From positions 62,001-126,000 of the forward strand of contig JAFGDP010000113.1 in the NCBI GenBank assembly GCA_016932075.1: a DNA stretch of 64,000 nucleotides, in the 5' to 3' direction. Every line of letters begins with the position of its first letter. Position 1 is the first letter of the stretch. Under the pieces are notes generated by a model. The model was given only the letters and a program-made list of their open reading frames with translations. It was not told where the DNA came from and searched no databases. This DNA is from Chitinispirillaceae bacterium (lineage in GTDB: Bacteria; Fibrobacterota; Chitinivibrionia; Chitinivibrionales; Chitinispirillaceae). Of the stretch, positions 6,908 to 39,522 are shown one piece after another. A program made the position numbers and the translations under genes.

Positions 6908-7389
6908 ATGAGTATTGCGCCATTGCTCCGGATGTGAAGCTTGGCAAAGGCGTCACGCTGTCGAAATTCATCAATTGCTATGGCTGCTCGATCGGCGATG
7001 GGACCAAAATCGGTGCGTTCGTGGAAATACAGAAGAATGCATTTGTGGGAAAGAACTGCAAAATATCGAGCCACACGTTTATCTGCGAAGGCGTGCATAT
7101 CGATGACGGCGTGTTTATCGGCCACGGCGTCATGTTCACCAATGACAAGTATCCCCGGGCCGTTAATCCCGACGGTTCGATGCAGACCGATGCCGACTGG
7201 AAGGTCATTCCCACCTCCGTGAAAAAAGGCGCGTCAATTGGCAGTAACGCCACTATCGTATGCGGCGTGACCATTGGCGAGCGGGCCATTGTCGGGGCAG
7301 GGGCGGTGGTCACGAAAGACGTGCCGGCGGACACGGTCGTGGCGGGGGTTCCGGCACGGCAGATGAAGAAGAAGACTACCGTCACCTGA
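6904..7389 (+). CDS. wbpD: Hexapeptide-repeat N-acetyltransferase, WbpD-like
   Basis: A 161-aa left-handed beta-helix protein built of hexapeptide repeats (IGDGTKIGAFVEI, IGSNATIVCGVTIG, IVGAGAVVTKDV). It is expected to acetylate the 3-amino group of UDP-2-acetamido-3-amino-2,3-dideoxyglucuronic acid with acetyl-CoA. Length and the terminal motif VVAGVPARQ fit the WbpD/WlbB group of sugar N-acetyltransferases. It is translationally coupled to the upstream WbpB-like gene through an ATGA overlap. It might act on another amino sugar, but the neighbouring aminotransferase supports this role. Confidence 0.85.
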   Translation: MNEYCAIAPDVKLGKGVTLSKFINCYGCSIGDGTKIGAFVEIQKNAFVGKNCKISSHTFICEGVHIDDGVFIGHGVMFTNDKYPRAVNPDGSMQTDADWKVIPTSVKKGASIGSNATIVCGVTIGERAIVGAGAVVTKDVPADTVVAGVPARQMKKKTTVT

Positions 7390-7410
7390 TATAATCGGTG
7401 TTTTTGCTTA

Positions 7411-7450
7411 GACCTCACCCCCTGGCCCCCTCTCCTGAAGGGAGAGGGGG
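7411..7450. repeat. GC-rich hairpin, intergenic palindrome
   Basis: CCCCCTCTCC at 7426-7435 pairs perfectly with GGAGAGGGGG at 7441-7450 around a five-base loop, preceded by CTCACCCCCTGGC. No T-run follows, so it is not a normal intrinsic terminator. Palindromes of this type are often dispersed repeats, and this one may stabilise the upstream mRNA end or cause polarity. Confidence 0.6.
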
Positions 7451-7501
7451 AAGAAATTAGAGAAATATTGTGCGATACCTCTTTCCCCGTTAGGAGAAAT
7501 C

Positions 7502-8674
7502 ATGACCCAACAGATTCCGTTTCTTGATTTAATCACTCCCCATAAGGAAATGAAAGCCGAACTCCTGGCCGTCCTCGACAAGGCCATCGACACCGCCGGG
7601 TACATCGGCGGGCCGATGGTCAAAAACCTGGAAGAGGAGTTCGCCCGTTTCTGCGGCGTCAAGCACTGCGTGGCTGTCAACAGCGGGACCGACGCCCTGC
7701 GGTTCGCCTATATCGCCGGCGGCATCAAGCCTGGCGACGAGGTCATTTCCGTGCCCAACACCTTTATCGCGACAACCGAGGCTATTACCCAGGCTGGCGG
7801 AAATATCGTGTTCGTCGATATCGACGAGCGTACCTATAATCTCGATCCGGAAAAACTGCGCGCATTTCTGGAAGGGTCATGCAGCAAAGACCGTAAAAAA
7901 ACGAAAAATAAAAAAACAGGCAGGCCCGTCACCGCCCTCGTCCCTGTCCACCTATACGGCCAGATGGCCGACATGGACGCGATTGCGGCGATTGCTGAGG
8001 AATGGAACCTGATGGTCGTTGAAGACGCATGTCAGGCCCATGGCGCAGAGTACCATTCGAAAAAATCAGGAAAATGGTGCAAGGCCGGCTCCATGGGAAA
8101 AGCTGCCGGGTTCAGTTTTTATCCGGGCAAGAACCTCGGCGCACTCGGCGAGGGCGGCGCAATCACCACGAACGACGACGAGATCGCCCGCACATGCCGC
8201 CAGCTCCGCGACCATGGCCAGGCCAAGAAATACTACCATGACATGGAAGGGTATAACGGCCGTCTTGACGCCATCCAGTGCGGATTCTTGAGCGCCAAGC
8301 TCAAGCGGCTGCCTGCATGGACCGACGCGCGGCGCAATAATGCGCAAAAATACAATGAACTGTTAACGTCGGTCAGAGGTGTAATAACACCGTTTGAACC
8401 TGAGTGGAGCAAGGCGGTCTACCACCTGTATGTGGTGCGGGTCAAGGACCGGGAAGCGTTGCAGAAAAAACTCGAAGAAAAGGGCCTACATACCGGTCTC
8501 CATTACCCCGTCCCGCTCCATCTGCAGAAGGCGTATTCGACACTTGGATACAAAACCGGGGATTTTCCGATCACGGAACAGGCCGCAGCCGAAATATTTT
8601 CCCTACCCATGTTCCCGGGCTTGACCGAAGAACAGGTTAAGGCGGTGGTGTCAGGAATTAAAGAAGCTGTTTAA
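7502..8674 (+). CDS. wbpE: DegT/DnrJ/EryC1 aminotransferase, WbpE-like
   Basis: A PLP-dependent sugar aminotransferase of 390 aa. The PLP-binding lysine is K210 in SFYPGKNLGALGEGGA, the typical motif of this family. It is expected to place an amino group on C3 of the keto sugar made by the WbpB-like enzyme, using glutamate. AGGAGA just before the ATG at 7502 supports the start. A short Lys-rich insertion at about residues 128-140 (SKDRKKTKNKKTG) interrupts an otherwise regular fold and is probably a surface loop. Gene order here is B, D, E, A rather than the usual A, B, D, E. Confidence 0.87.
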   Translation: MTQQIPFLDLITPHKEMKAELLAVLDKAIDTAGYIGGPMVKNLEEEFARFCGVKHCVAVNSGTDALRFAYIAGGIKPGDEVISVPNTFIATTEAITQAGGNIVFVDIDERTYNLDPEKLRAFLEGSCSKDRKKTKNKKTGRPVTALVPVHLYGQMADMDAIAAIAEEWNLMVVEDACQAHGAEYHSKKSGKWCKAGSMGKAAGFSFYPGKNLGALGEGGAITTNDDEIARTCRQLRDHGQAKKYYHDMEGYNGRLDAIQCGFLSAKLKRLPAWTDARRNNAQKYNELLTSVRGVITPFEPEWSKAVYHLYVVRVKDREALQKKLEEKGLHTGLHYPVPLHLQKAYSTLGYKTGDFPITEQAAAEIFSLPMFPGLTEEQVKAVVSGIKEAV

Positions 8675-8727
8675 CCACGAAACACACGAAAAATAAGAAT
8701 TTCCTGAATTTTCGTGTGTTTTTTGGT
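8674..8727. repeat. Dispersed ACACGAAA-type repeat, hairpin copy
   Basis: CCACGAAACACACGAAAA (from 8675) is followed after a short loop by TTTTCGTGTGTTTTTTGG (from 8709), so the segment folds on itself. It is a short member of the family that recurs at 10441-10614, 35161-35237 and 36081-36157. Confidence 0.75.
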
Positions 8728-8777
8728 TCGATCGTTGATTTCCACTACTATAACAATAAAGGGAAAAGGAATAATAC

Positions 8778-10424
8778 ATGGAAAATCCCAAAAAACTCGA
8801 ATCCGTAAGCCCTAAAGGCGAAGTATATGCAATCCCTACAAAGCAGGAATACGCTCCGGAACTCGAACGGCTCAAGAAGCTCACTGACCAGGCTCGGTCA
8901 GAAGGCAGGGAAATCGTGGTCGTTGTCGGCGTCGGTTTTGTCGGCGCGGTCATGGCCGCGATCGTTGCCGATACCGTTGACAAGAAAACCGGCAAACCAT
9001 CCAAGTTCGTCATTGGCATGCAGCGTCCGAGCACGCGGAGCTATTGGAAAATCCAACTTCTCAATCGCGGCATATCCCCTGTAAAGGCCGAAGACCCCGA
9101 AGTCGATCCCATGATCCGCCGCTGCGTACTTGACAAGAAAACGCTCGTCGCCACCTTTACCGAAGACGCGCTCACGCTCGCCGACGTGGTCGTGGTGGAT
9201 GTCCAGTGCGACTACCTCAAGGAGTCGCTCGGCGACCTCAAGGCCGGCCGGGCCGATATGGAAGCGCTTGAAAAATCACTGCATACCATAGCTGAAAAGA
9301 TCCCGGCTTCAGCGTTAGTGCTTATCGAAACAACGGTCGCGCCTGGAACCACCGAGCAGGTCGCTTACCCGATCATGAAAAAGAGCTTTGAAAAACGGGG
9401 AATCGCCACGGAACCGCTTCTCGCCCACAGCTACGAGCGCGTCATGCCCGGACGCGAATATGTTAAAAGCATCCGCGACTTCTGGCGCGTGTGCAGCGGC
9501 GTCAACGATGAATCTAAAAAACGGGTCGCGAAATTCCTCCATGAAGTCCTGAATACCAAGGATTTCCCGCTTACCGTGCTCGACCGCCCTATCGAATCCG
9601 AAACCGCGAAAATCGTTGAAAACAGCTATCGCGCCACCATCCTCGCATTTCTCGACGAGTGGAGCATGTTCGCCGAACAAAACGGCGTGGACCTGACCAA
9701 GGTCATTAAAGCCATAAAAATGCGTCCTACGCACAGCAACATGATCTTCCCCGGACCCGGCATCGGCGGTTACTGCCTGCCCAAGGACGGCGGACTCGGC
9801 ATGTGGGCATACAAACACATCCTTGGCTTTGAAGACAATATCTTCAAGATCACCCCAACAGCGATCAACATCAATGATACCCGCGCATTGCGCGTAGGCG
9901 CAATGACCCGCGATGCCCTGCGTAATATGGACCGGCCTATTGCCGCGGCTGAAATCCTTGTCCTTGGCGCATCCTACCGCGAAGACGTGGGCGACACCCG
10001 TTACAGCGGATCAGAGCTCATTGTGCGCAAGCTCACCGAAATGGGAGCCGAACTGCGCGTTCATGACCCATACGTCCAGCACTGGTGGGAGTTCGAGTCC
10101 CAGGACACCTACCCGACCCCCGGCTACTCCTGGGCCCGGTTCTTCCGCAACCAGGAAAAGCTCAAAAACCTGAGGATCAACCAGAATCTATCCGGTGCCC
10201 TCAAAAACTGCGACGCCGTGATCTTTGCCGTGCGCCATGAACAGTACCTCAAGCTCAAGCCTGAAGAGGTAGTCAAGCAGATTGGCAACCCCGCAGCCAT
10301 TATCGACTGCTTCGGCATTCTTGACGACGTTGCAATCAAGCGCTACTTTGAGCTCGGGTGCGAGGTCAAAGGCTTGGGCAGGGGACAGGTAAACAGGATT
10401 AAAAAGGCAGTGAGGGGGGTGTGA
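8778..10424 (+). CDS. Nucleotide-sugar (UDP-GlcNAc/UDP-ManNAc-type) 6-dehydrogenase, long form
   Basis: A member of the UDP-glucose/GDP-mannose dehydrogenase family. The NAD-binding motif GVGFVG is at residues 51-56, IETTVAPGTT near 183-192, SETAKIVENSYRA near 274-286, and the catalytic Cys333 lies in GGYCLPKD. Such enzymes oxidise the C6 alcohol to a carboxylate in two steps. Given its WbpB/D/E-like neighbours it probably makes UDP-N-acetylglucosaminuronic acid, the WbpA step. At 548 aa it is about 110 residues longer than typical members, with an N-terminal extension of about 45 residues and extra sequence around 405-450. It could instead be a UDP-ManNAc or UDP-glucose dehydrogenase. Confidence 0.85.
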   Translation: MENPKKLESVSPKGEVYAIPTKQEYAPELERLKKLTDQARSEGREIVVVVGVGFVGAVMAAIVADTVDKKTGKPSKFVIGMQRPSTRSYWKIQLLNRGISPVKAEDPEVDPMIRRCVLDKKTLVATFTEDALTLADVVVVDVQCDYLKESLGDLKAGRADMEALEKSLHTIAEKIPASALVLIETTVAPGTTEQVAYPIMKKSFEKRGIATEPLLAHSYERVMPGREYVKSIRDFWRVCSGVNDESKKRVAKFLHEVLNTKDFPLTVLDRPIESETAKIVENSYRATILAFLDEWSMFAEQNGVDLTKVIKAIKMRPTHSNMIFPGPGIGGYCLPKDGGLGMWAYKHILGFEDNIFKITPTAININDTRALRVGAMTRDALRNMDRPIAAAEILVLGASYREDVGDTRYSGSELIVRKLTEMGAELRVHDPYVQHWWEFESQDTYPTPGYSWARFFRNQEKLKNLRINQNLSGALKNCDAVIFAVRHEQYLKLKPEEVVKQIGNPAAIIDCFGILDDVAIKRYFELGCEVKGLGRGQVNRIKKAVRGV

Positions 10425-10647: not shown

Positions 10648-11691
10648 ATGCCCGATATCCAAATCGTCAACCCGTTAGACATCCCCGACTGGGACACCCG
10701 TGTTCTTTCTTTTCCCGAAGCCACCATCTTCCATTCCGCTGCCTGGGCAAGGGTTCTGATTGAATCGTATGGATTCCTACCGCATTATTGCGTAAATCGG
10801 CAAGGGGATGAAATAACCGGCATCCTGCCGCTCATGGAAGTCCGCGACATTCTCGGAAGAAAAAAAGCTGTTTCGCTGCCCTTTACCGATTTCTGCGAGC
10901 CATTGTTTAACGATACGGATGATTTCCAGAAGACCTTTGAGCATATTGCCGGTATCGCGCAAAATAAAAAATGGCGCTCCATCGAGCTGCGCGGCGGGCA
11001 TCAGAATCTTGCCAACCAACCGGTGTACGACGAAATTTTTACCCATGAAATTGACCTTACTCCTGAACCTGATGCGATATTCAAATCATTCGCAGATTCA
11101 AACCGCCGAAATATCCGAAAAGCCAAGAAATCAGGTATTACCGTGACGCATGAGAATTCGCTCGATGCCATGAAGTCCTTTTATTTTCTCAATTGCCTCA
11201 CCCGCCGCGAACACGGCCTACCGCCCCAGCCGTGGATTTTTTTCTATAAACTGTTGGAAACAATTTTGAGGCATGAAAAGGGCTTTATTACCCTGGCAAC
11301 GTACCAGCATAAACCTGTTGCGGCAAACCTCTATATGACTTTTGGCAAAAAAGCGCTCTATAAATACGGCGCATCCGACCGCCGGTTTCAGCATCTTCGA
11401 CCCAACAATATGGCAATGTGGGAAGGAATCAGAAAATGCAAATCGCTCGGAGCCGTTGCGATTAACCTCGGCAGGACAGAGATCCATCATACTGGATTGC
11501 TTCAGTTTAAACGAGGATATGGTTGTCAGGCGTCGACGGTCAATTATTATCGTTTTGATTATATACGAAATAAATTCGAACGTAATTCTGGTTCTCAGCA
11601 TACATTGAAAATTCAGTCTTTTATTTTTTCCCATTTGCCAATACCCATATCACGGCTTGTGGGTCAAATGATATTTAAATATGCCGGTTAG
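10648..11691 (+). CDS. FemAB-like GNAT-fold protein (PEP-CTERM/exosortase-associated type)
   Basis: A 347-aa protein with the double-GNAT layout of the FemAB/BioF2-like group. The first half includes IFHSAAWARVLIESYG and SLPFTDFCEP; the second half includes FGKKALYKYGASDRRF and NLGRTEIHHTGLLQFKRGYG. Members transfer aminoacyl or acyl groups to cell-wall or polysaccharide substrates. A FemAB-like protein is a regular member of exosortase-linked polysaccharide loci, and one lies 27 kb downstream here. The donor and acceptor cannot be read from sequence. Confidence 0.8.
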   Translation: MPDIQIVNPLDIPDWDTRVLSFPEATIFHSAAWARVLIESYGFLPHYCVNRQGDEITGILPLMEVRDILGRKKAVSLPFTDFCEPLFNDTDDFQKTFEHIAGIAQNKKWRSIELRGGHQNLANQPVYDEIFTHEIDLTPEPDAIFKSFADSNRRNIRKAKKSGITVTHENSLDAMKSFYFLNCLTRREHGLPPQPWIFFYKLLETILRHEKGFITLATYQHKPVAANLYMTFGKKALYKYGASDRRFQHLRPNNMAMWEGIRKCKSLGAVAINLGRTEIHHTGLLQFKRGYGCQASTVNYYRFDYIRNKFERNSGSQHTLKIQSFIFSHLPIPISRLVGQMIFKYAG

Positions 11692-20091: not shown

Positions 20092-20955
20092 TTGTTCAAA
20101 CGCCTCGCAAAGATATGCCTGGGTTGCCTGTGGCTCCTGTATTGGTTGCCGCTGCTGGCCGTGGTCCGGGTGCGCAAGTCAGCGTTCCGGAGCGTTCTGA
20201 TTGTTCTCTATTACCATGCAGTCCCTGCCCGCGCCGCCGCGCGTTTCTCACGGCAGATGTGGATTTTACATCGCTTGGGAATCGCGGCTTCGCCCCTTGA
20301 ATTGACAGCGGACCGCCGCAGAAACGGCATCCGCGTGCTCGTTACGTTTGACGACGGTTTCGAGTCGGTGATCGAGCATGCTCTTCCCCATTTGCGGCAG
20401 TTTGGCATTCCTGCAATCGTTTTCGTTCCAAGCGGATATATAGGGCGCGCGCCGGGATGGGTACCGGAGCATTCGCCCCTTCGGCAGGAGCGCGTGATGA
20501 ACGAACAGCAGCTGTGCCTGCTTGCCCGCGATCCCCTCATCACCATTGGATCGCACTGCCGTTCTCACCGAAAACTCACCGGCCTGTCTCAGGAAACGGC
20601 GGAACTGGAGATCAGGGAAAGCAAGCGCGAAATCGAAAGCATTCTCGGCACGCCGGTCATTTGGATCAGTTTCCCGCACGGTGCCTGCAATTCATCACAT
20701 GCTGCAATTACGCGTGAGGCGGGGTACAGCCGTGTTTTCACGATCCAACCGCATCTGCTCAAGGGCTTGCGTGAGGAGTATGCCGTCGGTCGATTCCCGG
20801 TGTCTGCCGAGAGCTGGTGGATCGAATATCTTCTTACCATATCCGGCGGCTGCGGCTGGCGGTCGCTGGGCGCCCGGCTGCGGCGCTTCGTGCAAGCGGG
20901 GGCGCAGCGCAGTGAACCGGACGGAGATGTCCCGATAGCGGGAGCTTCATCGTGA
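20092..20955 (+). CDS. Polysaccharide deacetylase (NodB domain)
   Basis: A 287-aa carbohydrate esterase 4 protein with canonical motifs: VTFDDGFES near residues 84-92, SHCRSHRKLT (the HxxxH metal site) near 149-158, and SFPHGACNSSH for the later active-site motif. The N-terminus carries a membrane segment (CLGCLWLLYWLPLLAVV), so it is probably anchored facing the periplasm. TTG at 20092 is the start, with AGGA at 20081-20084. It should remove acetyl groups from amino sugars. It is the third NodB-fold gene of this locus and the one with the clearest active-site motifs. Confidence 0.87.
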   Translation: MFKRLAKICLGCLWLLYWLPLLAVVRVRKSAFRSVLIVLYYHAVPARAAARFSRQMWILHRLGIAASPLELTADRRRNGIRVLVTFDDGFESVIEHALPHLRQFGIPAIVFVPSGYIGRAPGWVPEHSPLRQERVMNEQQLCLLARDPLITIGSHCRSHRKLTGLSQETAELEIRESKREIESILGTPVIWISFPHGACNSSHAAITREAGYSRVFTIQPHLLKGLREEYAVGRFPVSAESWWIEYLLTISGGCGWRSLGARLRRFVQAGAQRSEPDGDVPIAGASS

Positions 20956-25790: not shown

Positions 25791-26768
25791 ATGATCCTAG
25801 ACAAGCAATTACCGGCAATCGACGTCAGCATCGTCATCGTGAACTGGAATACGCGTCTGATGCTACTTGACTGCCTGCGGTCACTCAAAGAGCAGACGGT
25901 TGCCAGCAGCATTGAAGTTATCGTGGTTGACAACGGCTCGACCGACGGTTCTGTTGCCGCGGTGAATGCGGCCTTCCCGGACGTGACGATGATAGTTAAT
26001 CCCGACAACCGTGGTTTCAGCCGCGCCAACAATCAGGGCATAGCCGTAAGCCGCGGGCGGTATGTCTGTCTGGTCAATTCCGACATCAAGGTGCTCGACA
26101 GCTGCGTCGATAAAATGGTCGGTTATATGGAAAGCCATCACGACATCGGGCTCCTCGGACCCCGCACAGTATCGGAAAACATGCAGCTGCGTCAGAACTG
26201 CCGCAGGTTTCCTTCCTTGTCGACCCTCGTTGCTGACTCCTTCTTCCTCCGATATCTCACCGGCGGGAGGCCTCCGTTCACCGGCCGCACCTTGCGCGCG
26301 TCGACCTACCTGACCACGCACGACGCTGAAGTTGTGTCCGGATGTTTTCTCATGGCGCGGCGGACTGCCATGGAATCGGTCGGGCTGCTCGACGAGCGCT
26401 TTTTTATTTACGGAGAAGACGTTGATTGGTGTAAAAGGTTTCACGACGCCCGGTGGCGAATCGTCTTCTTTGCGGACGCGTACGCGATTCATTACGGCGG
26501 CGCCAGTTCCGCCGCGCTGCCGGCCCGATTCGCGGCCGAGATGCAGAAATCGGAAATGCAATACTGGCTCAAGCATCACGCACAGGCTTCGGTGACGCTG
26601 TTTCGCGCGATAAAGGTGCTATCTCTGGCCATCCATGTACTCTGCTGGCCGTTCAATGTTCTTCTCGCACGTCCGGCCCGGATTCAGGCGCAGGAAACTA
26701 TGCGTGGCTACATTGCATGCCTGCGCGTGGTATTGTTCCCCGACTTGATTCAGGAGCGCAGAATATGA
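25791..26768 (+). CDS. Glycosyltransferase family 2 (rhamnosyltransferase-like)
   Basis: A 325-aa GT-A enzyme. SIVIVNWNTRLMLLDCLRSL leads to VVDNGSTDGS, then NRGFSRANNQGI and the metal site LVNSDIKVLD. The later GEDVDWCKR gives the catalytic ED. The motif set matches the WbbL/rhamnosyltransferase branch, although the sugar is not certain. Its stop overlaps the next gene by ATGA. It is one of three glycosyltransferases of the locus. Confidence 0.87.
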   Translation: MILDKQLPAIDVSIVIVNWNTRLMLLDCLRSLKEQTVASSIEVIVVDNGSTDGSVAAVNAAFPDVTMIVNPDNRGFSRANNQGIAVSRGRYVCLVNSDIKVLDSCVDKMVGYMESHHDIGLLGPRTVSENMQLRQNCRRFPSLSTLVADSFFLRYLTGGRPPFTGRTLRASTYLTTHDAEVVSGCFLMARRTAMESVGLLDERFFIYGEDVDWCKRFHDARWRIVFFADAYAIHYGGASSAALPARFAAEMQKSEMQYWLKHHAQASVTLFRAIKVLSLAIHVLCWPFNVLLARPARIQAQETMRGYIACLRVVLFPDLIQERRI

Positions 26769-27961
26769 ATACACCAACCCATCAGCCCCGCCCTCAGGAG
26801 GGCGTCTCCCGCCAGGCCGTTACGGTTAGGCAGGCGGAACCTATCGACCGTCCCGAAATCTGGGAATTCATCAAGAACGCGTACGGCCGCCGTGCCGCCC
26901 AGAAAATCCCGGCCCGGTGGAACTGGGAATACCGGGCTAACCCATTCTGGAGGGAAGAGCGGCTTCCTGTATGGCTGGCGTTTGATAATGGCAAAATCAT
27001 CGGCCAGAACTGCGCGATGTACGTGCCGCTCAAGATAGGGTCCCGGACCATCCACGCCGCCTGGTCGGTTGACACCATAGTGCTGTCGCAGTACCGCGGA
27101 CAGGGTGCGGGATCGCTTCTGCAAAAAGCGAGTTCCCGCCACCACCAAGTGTTCATGAGCCTGTCAATGTCCAAAGCGAACCGCCGCGTCAAGAGCAAGA
27201 TCGGCTCAATGCCGCTGCCGCCGGTGACGGTATACCGGAAATTTTTGAAGCTGACGTCGGGGGCGGTGCGGCTATATATACAGTCATTGGAGCAGAAACA
27301 GCCGACAAAATCGCGGTTATTTCGCCTCGCCTGCTCCATTTTCCGGGTTCATCAGCTTATTCCGTTTTTCTTGAACCCGCTCATTGTGGCCTACCAACTG
27401 CTGTATGCTATGCGCGGCAAACCGCAGCCCGTCCAGATCGAAGAGATTGCGGAGTTTGGACCGGAAGTCGACACGTTCTGGGAAGAAGTCCGCACCGATT
27501 ATGATATCCTCGTGGAAAAAAATGCGCAATATCTGAACTGGAAGTACGTCTGTCAGCCTGACACGAGGTACCGGCTTTTTACCGCAAAAAAAGGTGGCAC
27601 GGTTGCCGGGTTCATGGTTGTGCGGCAGTTCGGTCCGGGCGAGCTGGAGTTCGGCATAATCGCCGAACTGTTCACCGCGCGCTCCGATGCGGATACACGA
27701 AGTGTAATGCTCCGGCACGCTGAAGAATTTTTCCGCGGCCGCGTGAATTACATGGAGAGCGCCGCCTCGATGCGCGAGTTCGGTGAAACGTTCAGGTCGG
27801 CTGGGTTTATCGCCTGCGAAAAGGTGGCGCCTCAGTTCAGTTGCGCCGAATCGCTTGCCGATGTCCGGGCCGAGGCCGTTTCAGGGACCTGGTTTTTGAG
27901 TCGGGGCGATCACGACTGGGATGCGTACCGGCCGGTGGTTGCGCAACAGGAAAAAGCCTGA
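26765..27961 (+). CDS. GNAT-fold acyltransferase
   Basis: The ATG at 26765 overlaps the upstream stop by four bases; the frame stays open further back within the glycosyltransferase. The 398-aa protein has a GNAT acetyl-CoA motif (LSQYRGQGAGSLLQKA, near residues 114-129) in its N-terminal part and a second GNAT-like half (WKYVCQPDTRYRLFTAKKGG). This resembles the FemAB/BioF2-like double-GNAT group that occurs in exosortase loci. It probably acylates a sugar, lipid or amino group. No signal peptide is seen. Confidence 0.75.
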   Translation: MNTPTHQPRPQEGVSRQAVTVRQAEPIDRPEIWEFIKNAYGRRAAQKIPARWNWEYRANPFWREERLPVWLAFDNGKIIGQNCAMYVPLKIGSRTIHAAWSVDTIVLSQYRGQGAGSLLQKASSRHHQVFMSLSMSKANRRVKSKIGSMPLPPVTVYRKFLKLTSGAVRLYIQSLEQKQPTKSRLFRLACSIFRVHQLIPFFLNPLIVAYQLLYAMRGKPQPVQIEEIAEFGPEVDTFWEEVRTDYDILVEKNAQYLNWKYVCQPDTRYRLFTAKKGGTVAGFMVVRQFGPGELEFGIIAELFTARSDADTRSVMLRHAEEFFRGRVNYMESAASMREFGETFRSAGFIACEKVAPQFSCAESLADVRAEAVSGTWFLSRGDHDWDAYRPVVAQQEKA

Positions 27962-27980
27962 AATGGAAGGAGGCGTTTTT

Positions 27981-29152: not shown

Positions 29153-29998
29153 ATGCCTGAACGTCCACTGCTAAAAAGAGAGTGCCGTATTCACCGGCAC
29201 CCTGAATTGCTGTTTTTTTTGACGCTGTTTTTCGTTTCCTGCCAGAACGGCATGAAAGATTGCGCACCAGTAAAAATCAAAACAGAAAAGGGCGTTACGC
29301 AAACGATGGGTTCAAAGAGTGTTCTGTTCGCCCACCAATCCGTGGGAAGGAATATTCTTGAAGGGGTACAGCGGCTCGGTGTCGGTATCCCGATTGTTGA
29401 GGTGGTGGACGTCGCCATCCTTGCGGATACGGTTGCACCGGGTATCTGGCATGCGCGGCTAGGAAAAAACGGCGATCCGTACGGGAAGATCACGGCATTT
29501 CGGTCAATGCTTGCCGCCGGCAACGCTGGGAAAAAGTTCGACATCGCACTCATGAAATTGTGCTATGTTGATATTAAACCTACGACAGATATCAATGCGC
29601 TTTTTTCGGTATATTCGCAGGAGATAATAAACATCAAAAAAACCTTTCCTTTCCTCACTATTATTCATTGCACGATCCCGCTCAAAACGTCTATGCCCGC
29701 TGGTATTAAGGAGCGGCTACTGCAGATGTTTACCGGTGACCAAGCCAATATTTGCAGAAATAAGTTCAACGAGCTCATGCGACTACAATATGCAGAAAAA
29801 GAGCCGATTTTCGACCTGGCTGCTACAGAATCATCCAAGCCGGATGGACAACGTGAAACGTTTTCCTTCAAGGGAAAGACCTGCGAAGCGTTATATCCCG
29901 GATACACCACGGACGGTGGCCATTTGAACGAAGCGGGCCAGGACAGAGCGGCGACGGAGTTCCTTCGGACAATCGCACAGGCAGGTGAGAAGAAGTGA
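29153..29998 (+). CDS. SGNH-like hydrolase-family protein, predicted lipoprotein
   Basis: A 281-aa protein. Its N-terminus is basic, then hydrophobic (LLFFLTLFF), then FVSCQN, close to a lipobox with cysteine at residue 30. FAHQSVGRN near 59-67 is the likely block I serine region, and DGGHLNEAG near the end gives the Asp and His of block V. Predicted to be an exported esterase or acetyltransferase partner. The start codon lies 128 bases after the previous gene, a larger gap than elsewhere in this locus. It overlaps the next gene by four bases (GTGA). Confidence 0.65.
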   Translation: MPERPLLKRECRIHRHPELLFFLTLFFVSCQNGMKDCAPVKIKTEKGVTQTMGSKSVLFAHQSVGRNILEGVQRLGVGIPIVEVVDVAILADTVAPGIWHARLGKNGDPYGKITAFRSMLAAGNAGKKFDIALMKLCYVDIKPTTDINALFSVYSQEIINIKKTFPFLTIIHCTIPLKTSMPAGIKERLLQMFTGDQANICRNKFNELMRLQYAEKEPIFDLAATESSKPDGQRETFSFKGKTCEALYPGYTTDGGHLNEAGQDRAATEFLRTIAQAGEKK

Positions 29999-31572
29999 TC
30001 AATCCTCCGTTATTGCTCCACCATTTTCTCGAACAAAGCAGCGAGCGCTGTCCGGAAAAGACAGCGGTTGTCTGTAACGAAATTCGGGCGACGTATAAGA
30101 GGATCAATAATGAAGCTGATTGTATTGCCCGCGCGCTTTGCTCGCATGGCGTTGAAAAAGGCAATAGGGTGGCTCTCCTGTTCGAGAATGGTCTCGAGTA
30201 CATAACATCCTATTACGGCATACTGAAAGCTGGCGCCGTGGCAGTGCCCCTTTCATCGGAACTTAAAGAGGAGCAGTGCGCTGCGCTTATTGACAGGATA
30301 GATGCACGCGCGTTTCTATTCGGGTCCAAATGGGAGGCAATGGCGCGGAATGCGCTTGTGCGGATACACGGGCCGTGTGTGGCTGTGGTTCCCGGACCGA
30401 AAACAGCGCATGCTTTCTGGCCCTCAGGTCTCCATGATCTGCATGAATGGCAGACGGCCGGAGTGTTTAAGGCGGTAAACCGGACTATTGATGAAAACGA
30501 CATTGCCAGTATCATTTTTACCTCAGGCTCAACTGGCACGTCCAAGGGTGTGGTGCTGTCGCATAGGAACATTGTGGCAAACACGCTGAGCATCATCGAA
30601 TATCTGCAATTGACCGACCGCGATGTTCAGATGGTCGTGTTGCCGTTTTTCTACGTCATGGGAAAATCGCTGCTCAATACCCATATTGCGGTTGGCGGAA
30701 CCGTGGTCATCAACAATCGGTTCGCCTTTGCCGCGGCAGTGCTCAATCAGATGGTCGAGGAGAAGGTGACCGGTTTTTCCGGTGTTCCTTCAACCTATGC
30801 CTATCTGCTTAACCGGTCTCCGCTGGCAAAATACCGCGACAAACTGACAACGCTGCGGTACTGCTCCCAGGCAGGAGGGCATATGCCCACGGCAGTAAAG
30901 CAGGAGCTGCGTCAGGCCCTGCCGGATCATACGCGGATCGTGATCATGTACGGTGCAACCGAGGCGTCGGCCCGGCTGACCTGGCTGGATCCTGCCTGGT
31001 TTGAAAAAAAGATCGGTTCTATCGGTAAACCGATTCCCGGGGTGAAGGTTCGTGTTATTGATGAACAGGGAAACGATGCGGCACCCAACCAGGTCGGTGA
31101 ACTGGTCGCGAGCGGTTCCAATATCATGCAGGGATACTGGAAGGATCCGGATGCGACCGCCAGGGTTCTTGACAAAAACGGCTACCATACCGGTGATCTC
31201 GGCTATTACGACGAAGATGGTTTTTTATTCATAAGCGGCAGGAAAGACAGTATCCTCAAGGTCGGTGGACACAAGATAAATCCTCAAGAGATCGAAGAGG
31301 CCATCATGGCGGACGGGTACGCCATAGAGGTTGCTGTTGTGGGCATGGACGACCCGATTTTGGGAAAGAAACTGGTTGCTATAATTGTACCGCGCGATGG
31401 AACATGCGATGAAAAAATGGTACTCTCGGCATGCTCCTCGCGCTTGCCGCGTTATAAAGTGCCTTCCTTGGTACTACCCGTTTCCTCACTGCCGAAGACC
31501 GCGAATGGAAAGACCGACCGCGAGCGCTGCTCGCTGCTTGTTCATGAGAATGAAAACAAGATAATGTCATAA
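29995..31572 (+). CDS. AMP-forming acyl/amino-acid ligase (exosortase-associated type)
   Basis: An adenylate-forming enzyme of 525 aa. The ATP-binding loop TSGSTGTSKG is at residues 176-185. A5-like YGATEASARL and the A7-like region HTGDLGYYDEDGF follow, with the catalytic lysine in PKTANGKTDR near the C-terminus. It should activate a carboxylic acid with ATP and pass it to CoA or, more likely here, to the acyl carrier protein encoded next. The start is GTG 29995. An AMP-ligase, a carrier protein and an AsnB-like amidotransferase occur together in some exosortase A loci. The acid substrate is unknown. Confidence 0.85.
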   Translation: MINPPLLLHHFLEQSSERCPEKTAVVCNEIRATYKRINNEADCIARALCSHGVEKGNRVALLFENGLEYITSYYGILKAGAVAVPLSSELKEEQCAALIDRIDARAFLFGSKWEAMARNALVRIHGPCVAVVPGPKTAHAFWPSGLHDLHEWQTAGVFKAVNRTIDENDIASIIFTSGSTGTSKGVVLSHRNIVANTLSIIEYLQLTDRDVQMVVLPFFYVMGKSLLNTHIAVGGTVVINNRFAFAAAVLNQMVEEKVTGFSGVPSTYAYLLNRSPLAKYRDKLTTLRYCSQAGGHMPTAVKQELRQALPDHTRIVIMYGATEASARLTWLDPAWFEKKIGSIGKPIPGVKVRVIDEQGNDAAPNQVGELVASGSNIMQGYWKDPDATARVLDKNGYHTGDLGYYDEDGFLFISGRKDSILKVGGHKINPQEIEEAIMADGYAIEVAVVGMDDPILGKKLVAIIVPRDGTCDEKMVLSACSSRLPRYKVPSLVLPVSSLPKTANGKTDRERCSLLVHENENKIMS

Positions 31573-31612
31573 TTATATGGAGCATACTTTGCAGCAAAAA
31601 AAGGAGGATATG

Positions 31613-31861
31613 TTGGATGTCATAACGCCGGTACGTGCCTTTATTGTGGAGAATTTTCTGTTCGGTGATGCGGCCAAGCTCGCGGCTGATGATACGTCGT
31701 TTCTAAACAGTGGCATTATCGATTCCACCGGTTTGCTCGAGGTGATTCAGTTTCTTGAAGAGACGTTCGCCATCAAGATTGAAGATGATGAGCTGCTTCC
31801 GGAAAACCTTGACAGCCTGGTGAACATACAGAAATTTGTCGAGCGGAAAAAAACAAACTGA
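31613..31861 (+). CDS. Acyl carrier protein
   Basis: A small acidic helical protein with the phosphopantetheine attachment motif IIDSTGLLE (serine at residue 38 of the 82-aa form). AAGGAGG at 31601-31607 fits a TTG start at 31613 best; ATG 31577 gives 94 aa but has no ribosome site, and ATG 31610 is too close. It is not accompanied by ketosynthase or fatty-acid synthesis genes, so it probably carries the acid activated by the upstream ligase. Substrate transfer to sugar or amine would then be made by a neighbour such as the AsnB-like enzyme. Confidence 0.87.
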   Translation: MDVITPVRAFIVENFLFGDAAKLAADDTSFLNSGIIDSTGLLEVIQFLEETFAIKIEDDELLPENLDSLVNIQKFVERKKTN

Positions 31862-31919
31862 TCTCATTATGGAAAATTCTCGTCGCGCGATGGAAACCAC
31901 GAAATAGGGATGGTCTGAG

Positions 31920-33902
31920 ATGTGCGGAATAGCCGGATTTATCAATCCCGGCGGACATGCCTTTGGTCAGGAAACGCTGACGCGCATGATTGCGTCCATT
32001 CGTTACCGGGGTCCTGACGCCTCAGGGATGTATCTTGACGACCATGCTGGCCTGGGTCAGGTGAGACTTTCCATTATCGATCTGGAAAGCGGAAATCAGC
32101 CGGTCCGCAATGAGCGTGAAGACCTGTGGATCGTCTTTAACGGCGAGATATTCAATTACGTTGAACTGCGGGCCGATCTGCAGAAAAAGGGGCACCGGTT
32201 TTATACCGCCTCTGACACCGAAGTGCTTGTTCATCTGTACGAAGAGTACGATACCGGATTCCTTAGCATGTTGAACGGCCAGTGGGCGTTCGCGCTGTGG
32301 GACAGCAGGCGCCGGAAATGCTTTATCGCACGGGACCGTGTGGGTATTCGGCCGCTGTATTATACGACCCATGATGGCACGTTTCTGTTCGCTTCTGAGA
32401 TCAAGGCGCTTTTTACCATTCCAGAGGTCAAGCGGGAGCTCGATCCGGCAGGCCTTGACCAAGTGTTCACCTTCTGGACAACCTTGCCGGGACAGACCAT
32501 TTTTAATGGAATCAGCGAGTTGCCTCCGGCCCATTACATGACCGTAACGGACAACGGCATTGCGGTTGAAAAATACTGGGATATTCCGCTGTATGAAAAG
32601 GATGCCTGGGAAACCGCTTCGCCGGAAGTTCTGGCTGAAAAGACGAGGGATCTTCTATGTGATGCGGTGAGAATACGGCTTCGCGCAGACGTGCCGGTCG
32701 CGACCTACCTGAGCGGCGGCCTTGACTCCTCAGGGATCACCGCTATTGTCGCTAAAAAGTTTAATCCTGACGTTCAGACGTTCGGCATACGGTTCGAAGA
32801 GGAGGTTTTTGACGAAGGCCGGCACCAAAACGAAATGGTGCGGTTTCTCGGGGTTAAACACCACGAAGTCTACGCGACGAATAAGGCCATAGGAGAGTCT
32901 TTCGCGGAGGTTGTCCGGCATTGCGAAAAGCCGGTCCTGCGTACCGCGCCGGTACCGCTCTACCTTCTGGCGAAACTGGTACGGGAAAACGGCATCAAGG
33001 TGGTTTTGACCGGCGAAGGAGCGGACGAGTTCCAAGGAGGATATGATATCTTCAAAGAAGCACTTGTCCGTCAATTTTGGGCTCGAAAGCCGGATTCATC
33101 CTGGCGGGGCCACTTGACCGGGCGGCTCTATCCTGACATCTTTCGCGACGAGCGCACGCGGAAATCGGTCCAGTCGTTTTTCAGGCGGGGATTGGCAGGC
33201 GCGCAGGACCCTCTCTCCTCTCATATGCTCAGGTGGAACAATACGTCCCGGATAAAACTGTTTTTTACCCGGCCTTTTCAGGAGGAGATGAATGCGCATG
33301 ATCCGATTGCCGATTGCCGCTCGCTCCTGCCTCCAGGATTCGCATCCTGGCATCCTTTGCACCGGGCGCAATATCTGGAGATCTCGATTTTCCTGAGCAA
33401 TTATCTGCTCTCGTCGCAGGGGGACCGGATGGGCATGGCGCATTCGGTGGAGGTCAGGATGCCATACCTTGATCACCGCCTGAACGATTTCCTCGGACGG
33501 GTGCCGCCCTGGTGGAAGATCTGCGGATTACATGAGAAACATGTCCTGAAAAAAGCGCTTGCCCCGTTTTTGCCTGAATCAATAACCGCGCGGGTCAAAC
33601 ATCCGTACCGCGCCCCGATTCACCGGAGCCTTCTTTCCATTCTCGCCACCGATGCCGGCGACGCTTATTTATCCGAAGACGCGCTTGCCTCAGCCGGTTT
33701 ATTTGATACTGGCCGGGTCCGCGCCCTGGTGCGGAAATTGTCTGAGAAGCAGGCAGGCAGTGAAACAGATACCATGGCTCTTGCTGGCATCCTGTCTGCG
33801 CAGATGATTGCCAGGGACTTTATTCCGGCACCCTGGCAGGTTGAAGTTTCCGATAGACCGCCGGATATAGTAATCGACAAACGGACAAAACAAGGACCTT
33901 GA
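31920..33902 (+). CDS. Asparagine synthase-type glutamine amidotransferase (exosortase-associated)
   Basis: A 660-aa AsnB-like enzyme. Cys2 after the start methionine begins the glutaminase domain (MCGIAGFINPGG; RYRGPDASG near 29-36; VFNGEIFNY near 72-80). The synthetase domain has the PP-loop SGGLDS at 265-270. It adenylates a carboxylate and amidates it with ammonia from glutamine. Related enzymes in exosortase loci probably make an amide or an amino-acyl link instead of asparagine. A start near GGGATGGTCTGAG, with a weak ribosome site, fits ATG 31920. Located between the carrier protein and a NadE-like ligase. Confidence 0.87.
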   Translation: MCGIAGFINPGGHAFGQETLTRMIASIRYRGPDASGMYLDDHAGLGQVRLSIIDLESGNQPVRNEREDLWIVFNGEIFNYVELRADLQKKGHRFYTASDTEVLVHLYEEYDTGFLSMLNGQWAFALWDSRRRKCFIARDRVGIRPLYYTTHDGTFLFASEIKALFTIPEVKRELDPAGLDQVFTFWTTLPGQTIFNGISELPPAHYMTVTDNGIAVEKYWDIPLYEKDAWETASPEVLAEKTRDLLCDAVRIRLRADVPVATYLSGGLDSSGITAIVAKKFNPDVQTFGIRFEEEVFDEGRHQNEMVRFLGVKHHEVYATNKAIGESFAEVVRHCEKPVLRTAPVPLYLLAKLVRENGIKVVLTGEGADEFQGGYDIFKEALVRQFWARKPDSSWRGHLTGRLYPDIFRDERTRKSVQSFFRRGLAGAQDPLSSHMLRWNNTSRIKLFFTRPFQEEMNAHDPIADCRSLLPPGFASWHPLHRAQYLEISIFLSNYLLSSQGDRMGMAHSVEVRMPYLDHRLNDFLGRVPPWWKICGLHEKHVLKKALAPFLPESITARVKHPYRAPIHRSLLSILATDAGDAYLSEDALASAGLFDTGRVRALVRKLSEKQAGSETDTMALAGILSAQMIARDFIPAPWQVEVSDRPPDIVIDKRTKQGP

Positions 33903-33951
33903 AAAGCTCTGAATATCATCTCTGCATTTCCGCTGCAATCGTGGAGGGATT

Positions 33952-34911
33952 ATGCTGCATAAATGGATGACCATTGATCTTGAAAAAGAGACCGAGCGTA
34001 TTTGTTCAAAACTCAAAGAGTATCTGGTTTCCTTTAAACGGCGCGGCTATGTTCTTGGCGTCAGCGGTGGCATTGACAGCAGCGTCACCCTTGGTCTGTG
34101 TGCCAGGGCCCTTGGGCCGGAAAAGGTGATCGCTTTGCAGATGCCTGAGCGTCATTCAGCGGATGAAACCCTTGCGCTTAGCGCGCTGGTCGCAGACGCT
34201 TTCAATGTCCGCAAGGAGCACGAGGACATATCCGGCATCCTTGAGGCCATTGGATTCTACCGTCGATACGACAATGCGGTGAAGGTGGTCATACCGGAAT
34301 ACGATCCTGGATGGAAATCGAAAATTGTGCTCCATACCGGATTGCAGGGTTCATTTGTGTCGGTATTCCACATCGTTGCTCAATCACCGGATGGCAAAAA
34401 GGTTGATAAACGTCTTCCGCTGAATTCTTATCTTGAAATCGTCGCCTCTACTAATTTCAAGCAGCGCACGCGAAAAATGCTGGAATATTACTATGCAGAC
34501 CGTTTCAATTATGCGGTAGCCGGAACCCCGAATCGTTTAGAATACGATCAGGGTTTTTTCGTCAAACTGGGGGATGGTGCGGCTGACATCAAACCGATAG
34601 CGCATCTTTATAAAACGCAAGTGTATGAACTTGCGGAATATCTTGGAGTTCCGGAAGATATACGAAAACGCCCTCCCACAACCGATACGTATTCATTACC
34701 TCAGGGCCAGGACGAGTTTTATTTCGCGCTGCCGTATGATAAAATGGACCTTTGCCTGTATGGTAAGAACACCGGAAAAAGCCCGGGTGAGGTTGCAAAG
34801 GAGATTGGGTTGGCTCCTGAACAGGTTGCTCTTGTCTATAAGGATATTGATACAAAGAGGTCAACGACACGGTATCTGCATGAGCCGCCGGTGTTGATTG
34901 AAAAAAAATAG
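33952..34911 (+). CDS. nadE: NAD+ synthase (NadE)-type amide ligase
   Basis: A 319-aa PP-loop ligase. SGGIDSS lies at residues 38-44, followed later by GTPNRLEYDQGFFVKLGDGA and RPPTTDTYSLPQGQDEFYF, the NadE deamido-NAD and ATP site regions. NadE converts nicotinic acid adenine dinucleotide to NAD+. There is no N-terminal nitrilase-type glutaminase domain. The sequence between 80 and 180 differs from the usual enzyme, and the gene closes an operon of ligase, carrier protein and AsnB-like genes, so a specialised amidation role in the polysaccharide pathway is possible (inference). A terminator follows. Confidence 0.8.
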   Translation: MLHKWMTIDLEKETERICSKLKEYLVSFKRRGYVLGVSGGIDSSVTLGLCARALGPEKVIALQMPERHSADETLALSALVADAFNVRKEHEDISGILEAIGFYRRYDNAVKVVIPEYDPGWKSKIVLHTGLQGSFVSVFHIVAQSPDGKKVDKRLPLNSYLEIVASTNFKQRTRKMLEYYYADRFNYAVAGTPNRLEYDQGFFVKLGDGAADIKPIAHLYKTQVYELAEYLGVPEDIRKRPPTTDTYSLPQGQDEFYFALPYDKMDLCLYGKNTGKSPGEVAKEIGLAPEQVALVYKDIDTKRSTTRYLHEPPVLIEKK

Positions 34912-34939
34912 ATTTTACTGAAAGGTATAATTACATAGG

Positions 34940-34971
34940 GACCGGAAGCATTTTGTTTCCGGTCTTTTTTT
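34940..34971 (+). terminator. Intrinsic terminator after the NadE-type gene
   Basis: GACCGGAA at 34940-34947 pairs with TTCCGGTC at 34957-34964, followed by a run of seven T residues. It ends the long polysaccharide operon. Confidence 0.88.
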
Positions 34972-35402: not shown

Positions 35403-35696
35403 ATGAAACTTTTATCTGAAATCCAATCCATTCTGCATTCTCATACCCGGGAATTGCAGGAGCGATACGGTCTTACGAACCTGGCTGTTTTCGGTTCTGT
35501 GGTCAGGGGTGAGGCTAACGACGACAGCGATGTGGACATTTTAACCGATTTTTGCAGACCAATCAGTTTGTTAACACTTGTCGAAGCTGAATATTATATC
35601 GGAGATTTGTTAGAGTCGAAGGTCGATCTTGTTCCCGCGCGCAGCGTCCGGCCGGAGCTAAAAAAGCGGATTTTTTCCGAGGCTGTGCCGGTATGA
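35403..35696 (+). CDS. mntA: MntA-type nucleotidyltransferase antitoxin
   Basis: A 97-aa minimal nucleotidyltransferase. The active-site pattern GSx10DxD is complete: G31-S32 (GSVVRG) and D43-x-D45 (DSDVDIL). In MntA/HepT modules this protein adenylylates a tyrosine of the HepT toxin and so blocks its RNase activity. The gene overlaps the next start by four bases (ATGA), the usual arrangement. The module lies between two repeat copies. Confidence 0.9.
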
Positions 35697-36037
35697 AAAG
35701 GGACATTCTGTTGTATCTTTCCGATATGATCGAAAACATCGGTGATACCGAAATTTTTATTTCCGCCCTTACCTACGACGAATTCATTCGTGATAAAAAG
35801 ACAGTGAATGCCGTTATCCGTTCGATTGAAATCATCGGTGAAGCGGCAAAGCATATTCCACTGGAGATACGGTTGCACTGCCCCGATATCCCTTGGAAAA
35901 ATATAGCCGGGATGCGCGACAAGTGCATTCATGATTATGCGGGCGTCGACCATGAGACAATATGGTATGTTGTCAAGGATGACCTTCCGAAGCTGCGTCC
36001 CCTGCTGCAGGCGCTACTTGATGATCTCCGCCGCTGA
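35693..36037 (+). CDS. hepT: HepT-type HEPN ribonuclease toxin
   Basis: A 114-aa all-helical HEPN protein. The catalytic motif RX4HXY is intact: R75, H80 and Y82 in RDKCIHDY. HepT toxins cleave RNA, and the tyrosine is the usual AMP-modification site for the MntA partner encoded upstream. The upstream nucleotidyltransferase and coupling through ATGA make this a standard type VII (MntA/HepT) toxin-antitoxin pair. No promoter was identified upstream of the pair. Confidence 0.9.
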
Positions 36038-37282: not shown

Positions 37283-37575
37283 GCGCCGGTAAAATACAAC
37301 ATATGCAAACACCGGTGTAGTCTCCGCATATATGCTCATGGAATATCGTATTCGAATGTCCCTTTTTGCACCATGCCTTGATGCAACTTCAGCTTCTCCC
37401 CGGCTGCTTTTTTCCCATTCGTGTCCTGGAAGCGGGCTATAGCTTTCATATTCGGAGAGGCCCCCGCGTGCCGATAGTATCGAATTTAACGGCAGGAAAT
37501 AGTATTTTCTTCCCATATCGCCGCATTTTTGATTGTTTGGCCTGTCGTGTACATTACACTAGACTGATACGCGCT
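37283..37575. promoter_or_regulatory. Divergent region between the VanZ-family and exosortase genes
   Basis: About 293 bp between the two chosen starts. Open frames reach into it from both sides but lack clear ribosome sites, so I treat it as control DNA for both genes. No sigma-54 motif is present. Confidence 0.35.
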
Positions 37576-38496
37576 ATGGGTATGCTTAATCCGTTTGAGA
37601 AAAAAAGATTGTCAATTTTTATAATTGCAGCGGTGTTTTTCATAGCCGTTTTTCATGGGACCGTCATTCTCCTTGTACGGTTCGCTTTTTCAAGCGATGC
37701 TTTTTCCTATATCCCGCTGGTCCCCATGGTCTCCCTTTTCTTTTTGTTCAAGGATAGAAAGGCGATCTTTGAAAAAACAGAATATTCGTTTTTCTTTGGT
37801 ACCGGGATCACCTCATGCGGCATGCTGCTCCATGTCATATCCTTGGTCTGGGGAGGTTCTATTTCCAGGGAAAATGGACTTACGCTGGATACCATTTCGC
37901 TGCTTGTCTCGCTGTGGGGGATATTTGTCCTCTGCTTCGGCATTGGGTCATTCAGGAAAGCGCTCTTCCCATTGCTGTTTTTGGTGTTTATCATTCCGCT
38001 ACCCAAGCTGGTCGAGCGACTGATCGTTGAAATGTTCCGTGCCGGTTCCGCCGAAATGGTCGCTTTTTACTTTACTATTATCGGGGTTCCTTTTTTTAGG
38101 GAAGGCGATACGTTTCAACTCGAGCATTTGAGGTTTTGTGTCGCGAGCCAGTGCAGCGGGATAAATTCCGGGCTTTCGCTGTTTATTGTGAGTGTCATCG
38201 CGGCAAAGGTTTTTTTAAAAAACACATGGGTTCGGGTACTGTTTATTCTGTCTGTTGTCCCTATCGGGTGGTCGAAAAACGGTTTGCGTATAGCCACTCT
38301 GACGCTTTTAGGCAGTTACGTGAATCCGGATTTTTTATCTGGTCCGTTGCATAGGCAGGGGGGCAGGCCGTTTTTTATTGTAGCCTTGTTGTTTCTGGGA
38401 GGGTCACTGTTTTTATGCAGGGTTATTGAGAAACAGATATGGAAAAAAATATCGGTTTCTGATACTTCGATGAGTGCCGAGGATGCCAAGCAATAA
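37576..38496 (+). CDS. Exosortase (EpsH/XrtA-like transpeptidase)
   Basis: A 306-aa inner-membrane protein with about eight helices, started at ATG 37576 because the open frame before it is unlike the family. The catalytic set is complete: Cys193 in SQCSGINSG, Arg238 in KNGLRIATL and His259 in LHRQGG. Exosortases cut proteins at a C-terminal PEP motif and pass them to an unknown acceptor, by analogy to sortase. The cognate substrate gene and the PrsK/PrsR regulators follow directly. Confidence 0.93.
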   Translation: MGMLNPFEKKRLSIFIIAAVFFIAVFHGTVILLVRFAFSSDAFSYIPLVPMVSLFFLFKDRKAIFEKTEYSFFFGTGITSCGMLLHVISLVWGGSISRENGLTLDTISLLVSLWGIFVLCFGIGSFRKALFPLLFLVFIIPLPKLVERLIVEMFRAGSAEMVAFYFTIIGVPFFREGDTFQLEHLRFCVASQCSGINSGLSLFIVSVIAAKVFLKNTWVRVLFILSVVPIGWSKNGLRIATLTLLGSYVNPDFLSGPLHRQGGRPFFIVALLFLGGSLFLCRVIEKQIWKKISVSDTSMSAEDAKQ

Positions 38497-38655: not shown

Positions 38656-38706
38656 ATATAAACATGTGCAATATAATATGCATTTTAAAAAATGAGAGGT
38701 TTTTTT

Positions 38707-39522
38707 ATGAAAAAGGTGATGGTGATGATGGCAGGAGCAGTGATTTTCGCGGCAGGGGTTTTTGCGGATGATATTACCATTTATGATGGTAACTCCGATA
38801 ATGGTTCATATTCAGGCGGTGGGTGGTACAATAACGGTTGGAAATATGACACGCGAGGCGTTAAAGAAGATCATGAGGTTGAACCCAATTGCATAGGTTC
38901 TCAGGTATGGGATCTTGAAGCGTTCACTCTTGATCAGAATAATAACCTTGGAATGGTGGGCGGGTATAATTTTAATAACGGCGTGGAAAATGTGAGAGGG
39001 GGAGACATTTTTATCGCGGTTGATAATGCCCCGGTGTATGGTAAATCAAACCGTGGAAGCGGCAGTGGAAACAGCATAGTAAATAATGCTTTTAATTATG
39101 ACTATGCAATTGATCTTGTTTTTAATGAGGATGGTACAGGAGGTACCTATTACGTTTATGAATTGACAGAGGCTTCCACCGTCACCGTATATTATGGCCA
39201 GAATGATGAATCCAATCCATGGCAGTACAATAGCGGCGGTACGCTAAAAGAATCGGGTACCTTTGCCTACGCCACCAACCTTTCTGATTCAGACGTAGGC
39301 TTTGTCGGGGGATCCCATTACCAGATTTCAGGCATTGACCTTTCATTTATCGGCGGCGATAAGGAGTTCTGGGCTCATTACACAATGGAATGCGGAAACG
39401 ACAACCTCATGGGCAGGGGTACGACTCATGCGGTTCCCGAGCCGGGCTCGCTTTTACTCTTCGGCACTGGTCTGCTCGGTCTTATCGGTATTTCGGTCAT
39501 CAGAAGGAAAAAGAGAGACTAG
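38707..39522 (+). CDS. PEP-CTERM sorting-domain protein (exosortase substrate)
   Basis: A 271-aa exported protein. ATG 38707 has AGAGG upstream at a good distance; ATG 38692 is less likely. A signal peptide ends about residue 20 (FA before DDITIY). The middle is Gly/Asn/Tyr-rich, low in charge and beta-prone. The last 29 residues are a textbook sorting signal: VPEPG, a hydrophobic helix (LLLFGTGLLGLIGISVI), then RRKKRD. It is the only such protein seen in the window and is expected to be processed by the adjacent exosortase, probably to become part of the biofilm or cell-surface matrix. A strong terminator follows. Confidence 0.93.
   Translation: MKKVMVMMAGAVIFAAGVFADDITIYDGNSDNGSYSGGGWYNNGWKYDTRGVKEDHEVEPNCIGSQVWDLEAFTLDQNNNLGMVGGYNFNNGVENVRGGDIFIAVDNAPVYGKSNRGSGSGNSIVNNAFNYDYAIDLVFNEDGTGGTYYVYELTEASTVTVYYGQNDESNPWQYNSGGTLKESGTFAYATNLSDSDVGFVGGSHYQISGIDLSFIGGDKEFWAHYTMECGNDNLMGRGTTHAVPEPGSLLLFGTGLLGLIGISVIRRKKRD

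Follow-up and report, generated by a model that had tools for sequence, protein, structure and literature searches.

A recurrent set of ligase, carrier protein, AsnB-type amidotransferase and NadE paralogue genes in an exosortase locus of a Chitinispirillaceae bacterium

Closest described systems

Enzymes of the AsnB and NadE types activate carboxylates with adenosine triphosphate (ATP) and then form amides, and the loading of a carrier protein by an adenosine monophosphate (AMP)-forming ligase is likewise established for these families. Here we describe four consecutive genes in a 64,000-nucleotide stretch of DNA from a Chitinispirillaceae bacterium (“the window”, meaning the whole stretch that was analysed), which encode an AMP-forming acid ligase, an acyl carrier protein (ACP), an AsnB-type glutamine amidotransferase and a paralogue of the nicotinamide adenine dinucleotide (NAD) synthase NadE. 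Dlt, which we take to be a system of carrier loading by an AMP-forming ligase, has a ligase, a carrier and an SGNH protein in common with the window. It differs in that the window adds the AsnB and NadE genes; moreover, the MBOAT transferase DltB had no match among the window open reading frames (ORFs) scanned against Pfam, a scan that covered the larger ones.

One relative is the XrtA/PEP-CTERM system: its ligase and amidotransferase models, TIGR03098 and TIGR03108, are the best or second-best models for the corresponding window proteins and both systems lie in exosortase loci. Yet the window ligase reaches 359 bits against a curated cut-off of 592 and AsnB 406 against 817, and neither NadE nor the carrier is named in the available passages of the XrtA accounts. 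A second relative is the Wbp/Vim system with WbpS. In the passages of PMC7468200 cited here, its linking sugar, which is attached to sorted proteins, is worked on by a deacetylase, by a transferase and by an amidotransferase of the AsnB type, and the authors draw attention to PEP-CTERM loci. The window shares with it Wbp-like genes, a deacetylase, a FemAB/GNAT-type transferase, an AsnB-type amidotransferase and a sortase-bearing locus, although its relatives of WbpA, WbpB, WbpD, WbpE, VimA and VimE are such by family only (the FemAB-type protein scores 130 of 260 bits with TIGR03019). In contrast to that system, the set adds a ligase, a carrier and NadE, which the same passages of PMC7468200 do not name, and its AsnB is of another clade.

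For single-domain NadE, the genome contexts of De Ingeniis et al. 2012 (PMC3376133, as far as its available text goes) gave no alternative glutaminase partner, whereas one clade of NadE is seen here to be co-inherited with an AsnB that carries a glutaminase domain. No published description of the module was found in open-access PMC papers, nor was it found in the accessible parts of PMC11340318, PMC7726332, PMC8035330 and PMC7196632.

Recurrence and joint presence of the four genes

A preliminary description of this DNA, made from its letters and ORFs, had placed a ligase, a carrier, an AsnB-type gene and a NadE-type gene side by side, and the ORF list together with Pfam and NCBIfam returned all four where it had put them (Table 1). 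All lie on the plus strand with gaps of 4, 58 and 49 nucleotides (ligase/carrier, carrier/AsnB and AsnB/NadE). The motifs that it had named were read in the ORFs, as GIIDSTGL in the carrier and as MCGIAG and SGGLDSSG in AsnB, and the PP-loop motif of the NadE ORF is SGGIDSS. Ketosynthase, thioesterase and fold-III pyridoxal phosphate decarboxylase, said there to be missing, were indeed not seen among the Pfam-scanned window ORFs.

Neighbourhoods were sampled by a NadE similarity scan of genome contigs; the best 80 of at least 560 loci were taken and seven plasmid loci were added, giving 87 loci with flanks of 10 kb at most, two S. meliloti strains among them. By record title, the 80 loci come from Desulfobacterota, Geobacter relatives, Chitinispirillaceae and other Fibrobacteria, Latescibacterota, Omnitrophota, Verrucomicrobia, Planctomycetota, Acidobacteria, Manganitrophus, Actinobacteria, Proteobacteria, Gemmatimonas, Myxococcales and others. 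Where at least 8 kb was available on both sides of nadE (42 loci), ligase, carrier and AsnB all lie within 8.5 kb in 29 loci, two of these three partners in 9, one in 2 and none in 2, so that 38 of the 42 hold at least two, in about ten phyla. A survey for the same four-gene order had been proposed as a check, and it is the set which recurs in distant groups; the order varies among loci and is mostly not kept. Over 99 loci NadE adjoins the ligase 35, the carrier 34 and AsnB 38 times, equally often, and NadE and carrier are not claimed as an irreducible pair. In eight loci from related genomes (L077 and L156-L162) only NadE and the carrier adjoin, with ligase and AsnB elsewhere in the genome; AsnB was not found in one of these genomes, G780. 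Fusion proteins were not seen in the frames read, and a search of phage records found nothing.

In phylum-drawn surveys, NF002048, the model of this NadE subfamily, was matched in 12 of 198, 14 of 247 (a sample that shares genomes with the first), 8 of 246, 5 of 240 and 22 of 167 genomes. At least one partner lies nearby in 39 of 42 survey loci of the module clade, and in 24 of the 26 whose flanks are both 6 kb or longer. The 167-genome survey covers one phylum, with genomes around Chitinispirillaceae. There, module-type AsnB (670 bits or more with profile A3) occurs in 21 genomes, namely 20 of the 22 with NadE and 1 of the 145 without it, and the module ligase (profile A4, at least 520 bits) in 20 genomes, all among the same 22 and none among the 145. 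The Fisher p values of 1.3e-22 for AsnB and 6.5e-24 for the ligase overstate independence, the genomes being related. Both cut-offs were set after seeing the scores, at score gaps, and the next genomes below them stand at 519 bits for AsnB and at 483 and 443 bits for the ligase (two NadE-negative genomes). Scoring was confined to the best 7 or 9 first-look candidates of each genome, so that some absences may be missed genes. The exceptions are NadE without AsnB in G780 and G028 (the latter with a 187-residue AsnB piece at a contig edge), AsnB without NadE in G783, and NadE with no ligase in G027 and in G796. One lineage has the genes dispersed, with NadE beside the carrier, AsnB after Wza/Wzc-like genes and the ligase elsewhere. 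Since joint presence and absence holds even where the genes are unlinked, something beyond linkage maintains the set, which bears out the earlier proposal that the four genes form a real set.

Family placement of the four products

Two types of ligase pocket are found among the loci, F.Y..G.S.L, which is that of the window ligase (pocket stretch FFYVMGKSLLNTH), and LSF(D/G)YGLYQ. At the column which we take to hold the amino-acid-binding Asp of the A domains of non-ribosomal peptide synthetases, Val stands in the window ligase, and Asp or Gly in the ligases with the other type of pocket, so that this column does not single out an acid. In L043 (6692-9944) two ligases that differ in pocket type lie side by side, adjoining nadE. 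The carrier has no Pfam match and scores 51 bits with NF052616 (cut-off 130), and its matches to the NCBIfam ACP models (E values of 1e-13 to 3e-4) are every one below cut-off; yet it aligns with the peptidyl carrier protein (PCP) 2my5 at the DS site, which together with the attachment Ser places it in the ACP fold family. DSTG is present in 83 of 88 carrier proteins near NadEs of the clade.

With 508 bits to TIGR01536 (cut-off 267), MCGI and SGGLDSSG, the third protein is an AsnB-type glutamine amidotransferase. Module AsnBs share E.P..R (R341) and R.K.PYRAP (R564), and the extra Arg residues may bind a second acidic group. Four other AsnB-like proteins of the same loci are without these motifs (those of L022 and L032, and second copies in L041 and L058); in L022 and L032 DEP..D and RPK.GF stand in their place. 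The best solved chain for AsnB is the hydroxyamidotransferase 7ylz (228 bits alone and 363 when a profile is used), but the stretch at R341 is not common to both in the printed alignment.

NadE belongs to the PRK00876 subfamily (492 bits to NF002048, cut-off 313) and falls below the equivalog of the PRK13980 NAD synthase, NF010587 (185 bits, cut-off 255). It has at least 8000 relatives at E values of 1e-10 or better, 67-100% identical among the 120 matches listed. The module NadE clade has a support of 100/99 in a tree whose module rows were gathered by NadE similarity, whether or not partners were seen, and in which the compared NadE of L091 forms a very long branch. The preliminary description had asked whether this is the housekeeping enzyme of the cell. 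Another NadE, besides that of the clade, was found in 33 of 34 relatives, in agreement with an extra copy; as to the other half of that test, the catalytic residues and most residues of the deamido-NAD site are kept, beside clade-conserved changes, and the answer is divided. Of the residues which we take to contact nicotinic acid adenine dinucleotide (NaAD, the deamido-NAD), R172, R174, K205, D212 and K302 are present, and Thr replaces the His of the usual HK pair; K205 is itself missing from 11 of 13 other NadEs compared. Against these 13, many differences are conserved in the clade, an insertion included (columns counted over 90 rows, 3 of them sister NadEs), and the P2-loop stretch reads TTDT in place of mostly SAEL, SADL or TAEL. 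NAD synthetase and the nicotinamide mononucleotide (NMN) synthetase 3fiu differ from the clade NadE by the insertion, the changed P2 loop, the module partners and the extra copy in relatives. A NadE of this clade probably serves a pathway other than its name of NAD synthase in the sources suggests. In A. brasilense a third NadE, lacking a glutaminase domain, was detected in cell extracts according to the available part of PMC7646526, and we infer that it is the clade NadE.

A sister group of more distant NadEs (312-389 bits to the module profile) was met in ten survey loci, where no module-type AsnB lies nearby; three of them have a ligase, a carrier and a WbuX-like PP-loop protein and seven have none of these. 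The WbuX-like protein takes the place of AsnB in L123 (10386-11429), L126 (12359-13369) and L128 (6320-7318), and the two that were scanned gave 148 and 146 bits with TIGR03573 (cut-off 203). The NadEs of L104 and L106 also stand alone.

A possible pathway, its rivals and the surrounding genes

Support is good for the grouping and for the extra NadE, and the chemistry proposed for them is hypothetical. We give about an even chance to a dedicated pathway, in which a carrier-assisted, amide-bearing acyl group is handed to a surface polysaccharide. The ligase would activate an acid and charge the carrier with it. Two enzymes, AsnB drawing on glutamine and the NadE paralogue on ammonia that is either free or released by AsnB, would each activate a carboxylate with ATP and turn it into an amide, at least one of these amides being formed on the carrier-bound group. 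A GNAT or FemAB-type enzyme would move the group onto an amino sugar, at an amine freed beforehand by a deacetylase, and the SGNH protein would trim or move it outside the cell. The order deacetylase, carrier, ligase, AsnB, NadE, GNAT on Azospirillum plasmids points to the freeing of a sugar amine and its later acylation with the finished group, and polysaccharide and exosortase genes lie near many of the 87 loci. The set would then mark a polysaccharide decoration that could be sought by nuclear magnetic resonance or mass spectrometry in cultured hosts such as Azospirillum brasilense, Sinorhizobium meliloti or Geomonas. It is also relevant to the question of what molecule exosortases join proteins to. 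A bolder version, which we regard as rather doubtful, would make the NAD synthase paralogue a carrier-dependent amide synthetase with the linked AsnB as its glutaminase partner, place the amide-bearing acyl group in exosortase loci on the PEP-CTERM-linked sugar, and have the sister NadE do the same with a WbuX-like partner.

Several observations weigh against such a pathway. Two Rhizobiales plasmid loci (L001 and L003) have no obvious polysaccharide genes beside the set, and a conserved deacetylase or GNAT is found in a minority of loci only. NadE passes the general nadE model TIGR00552 (158 bits, cut-off 64) with its PP loop and most presumed NaAD contacts kept, and Methanosarcina acetivorans was the sole NF002048 match among 14 control genomes. 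With the conserved catalytic residues, these last points would fit a true NAD synthase, kept as a second isoenzyme and tied to the set through NAD+ supply or regulation. We consider this unlikely given the other NadE in nearly all relatives, the score short of PRK13980, the clade-conserved changes and insertion, and the tight link with a ligase, a carrier and an AsnB, which have no role in NAD synthesis.

It is possible, with less confidence than we place in the dedicated pathway, that the locus holds two jobs, where AsnB (like WbpS), and perhaps NadE, would amidate a nucleotide-activated uronic acid and the ligase and carrier would feed an unrelated acyl group to an N-acyltransferase. The normal substrate of NadE is a dinucleotide, and on general grounds this would resemble a uridine diphosphate (UDP)-uronate. 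Wbp-like genes are present in the window, and uronamide formation by WbpS is described in the part of PMC7468200 cited above. Against this division stand the shortfall of AsnB with TIGR03108, its different pocket motifs, and the fact that the genes are present and absent together also where no Wbp-like genes are seen nearby (WbpA-like matches occur in 7 of the 87 loci). A chance meeting of common families, for which one could cite the varying order and the wide spread of these families in bacteria, is hardly credible and was rejected on the locus counts (29 and 38 of 42) in distant groups and the co-occurrence in 167 genomes.

Table 1. Features of the window discussed in the text
Feature	Position	Strand	Basis
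AMP-forming acid ligase, 525 aa	29995..31572	+	PF00501 280 bits, PF13193 57 bits
Acyl carrier protein, 94 aa, attachment Ser in DSTG	31577..31861	+	motif GIIDSTGL; PCP 2my5 E 5e-10
AsnB-type glutamine amidotransferase, 660 aa, distinct clade (R341, R564)	31920..33902	+	PF00733, PF13537, TIGR01536, clade motifs
NadE paralogue, 319 aa, PP-loop ligase, PRK00876 subfamily	33952..34911	+	PF02540, NF002048
SGNH-fold protein, 281 aa, signal- or lipoprotein-like start; Ser63, Asp254, His257 likely catalytic	29153..29998	+	
Terminator-like hairpin with T run, 14 pairs, 3′ of nadE	34937..34967	+	
GNAT-type acyltransferase, candidate for the transfer step	26765..27961	+	PF13527 31 bits, PF00583 28 bits
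FemAB-type protein, alternative candidate for the transfer step	10648..11691	+	PF02388; TIGR03019 130 bits, under cut-off 260
Polysaccharide deacetylase, may free the sugar amine	20092..20955	+	PF01522 73 bits
Dehydrogenase, hexapeptide transferase, DegT aminotransferase, UDP-sugar dehydrogenase	5897..10424	+	Pfam
Exosortase	37366..38496	+	PF09721 141 bits
PEP-CTERM protein	38692..39522	+	PF07589 28 bits, cut-off 20.7

The SGNH gene overlaps the start of the ligase gene, whose GTG is at 29995 with the TGA of the former ending at 29998, and a PDB search with the SGNH protein gave no sequence match. It is adjoined by a gene (27921-29024) for a secreted-looking protein of 367 residues with no Pfam or NCBIfam match. 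Terminator-like sites number 13 in the region against 7.5 expected in shuffles. The dehydrogenase-to-dehydrogenase group, with its DegT-type aminotransferase at 7502-8674, may be a Wbp-like set for a diacetamido uronic acid; its NCBIfam matches are below equivalog cut-offs, and the nucleoside diphosphate (NDP)-sugar dehydrogenase subfamily model TIGR03026 is above its own. In Azospirillum and in Rhizobiales, too, the set is flanked by GNAT-like genes. In Mesorhizobium ciceri (L085, 13009-19963) the set adjoins a GNAT-like gene, a methyltransferase and a GT2/HEAT/YaiO group, which may be a glycan synthase system.

The exosortase and PEP-CTERM genes lie just downstream of nadE. The exosortase is closest to XrtC (TIGR04151, 154 bits) and below every subtype cut-off, and is perhaps of an unnamed subtype. 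Between nadE and the exosortase gene, a nucleotidyltransferase (PF01909) and a HepT-like protein (PF01934) form a pair of the MNT/HEPN toxin-antitoxin type at 35403-36037. Another PP-loop protein of the window, at 2528-3325, is of the LarE type (TIGR00268, 318 bits, cut-off 150).

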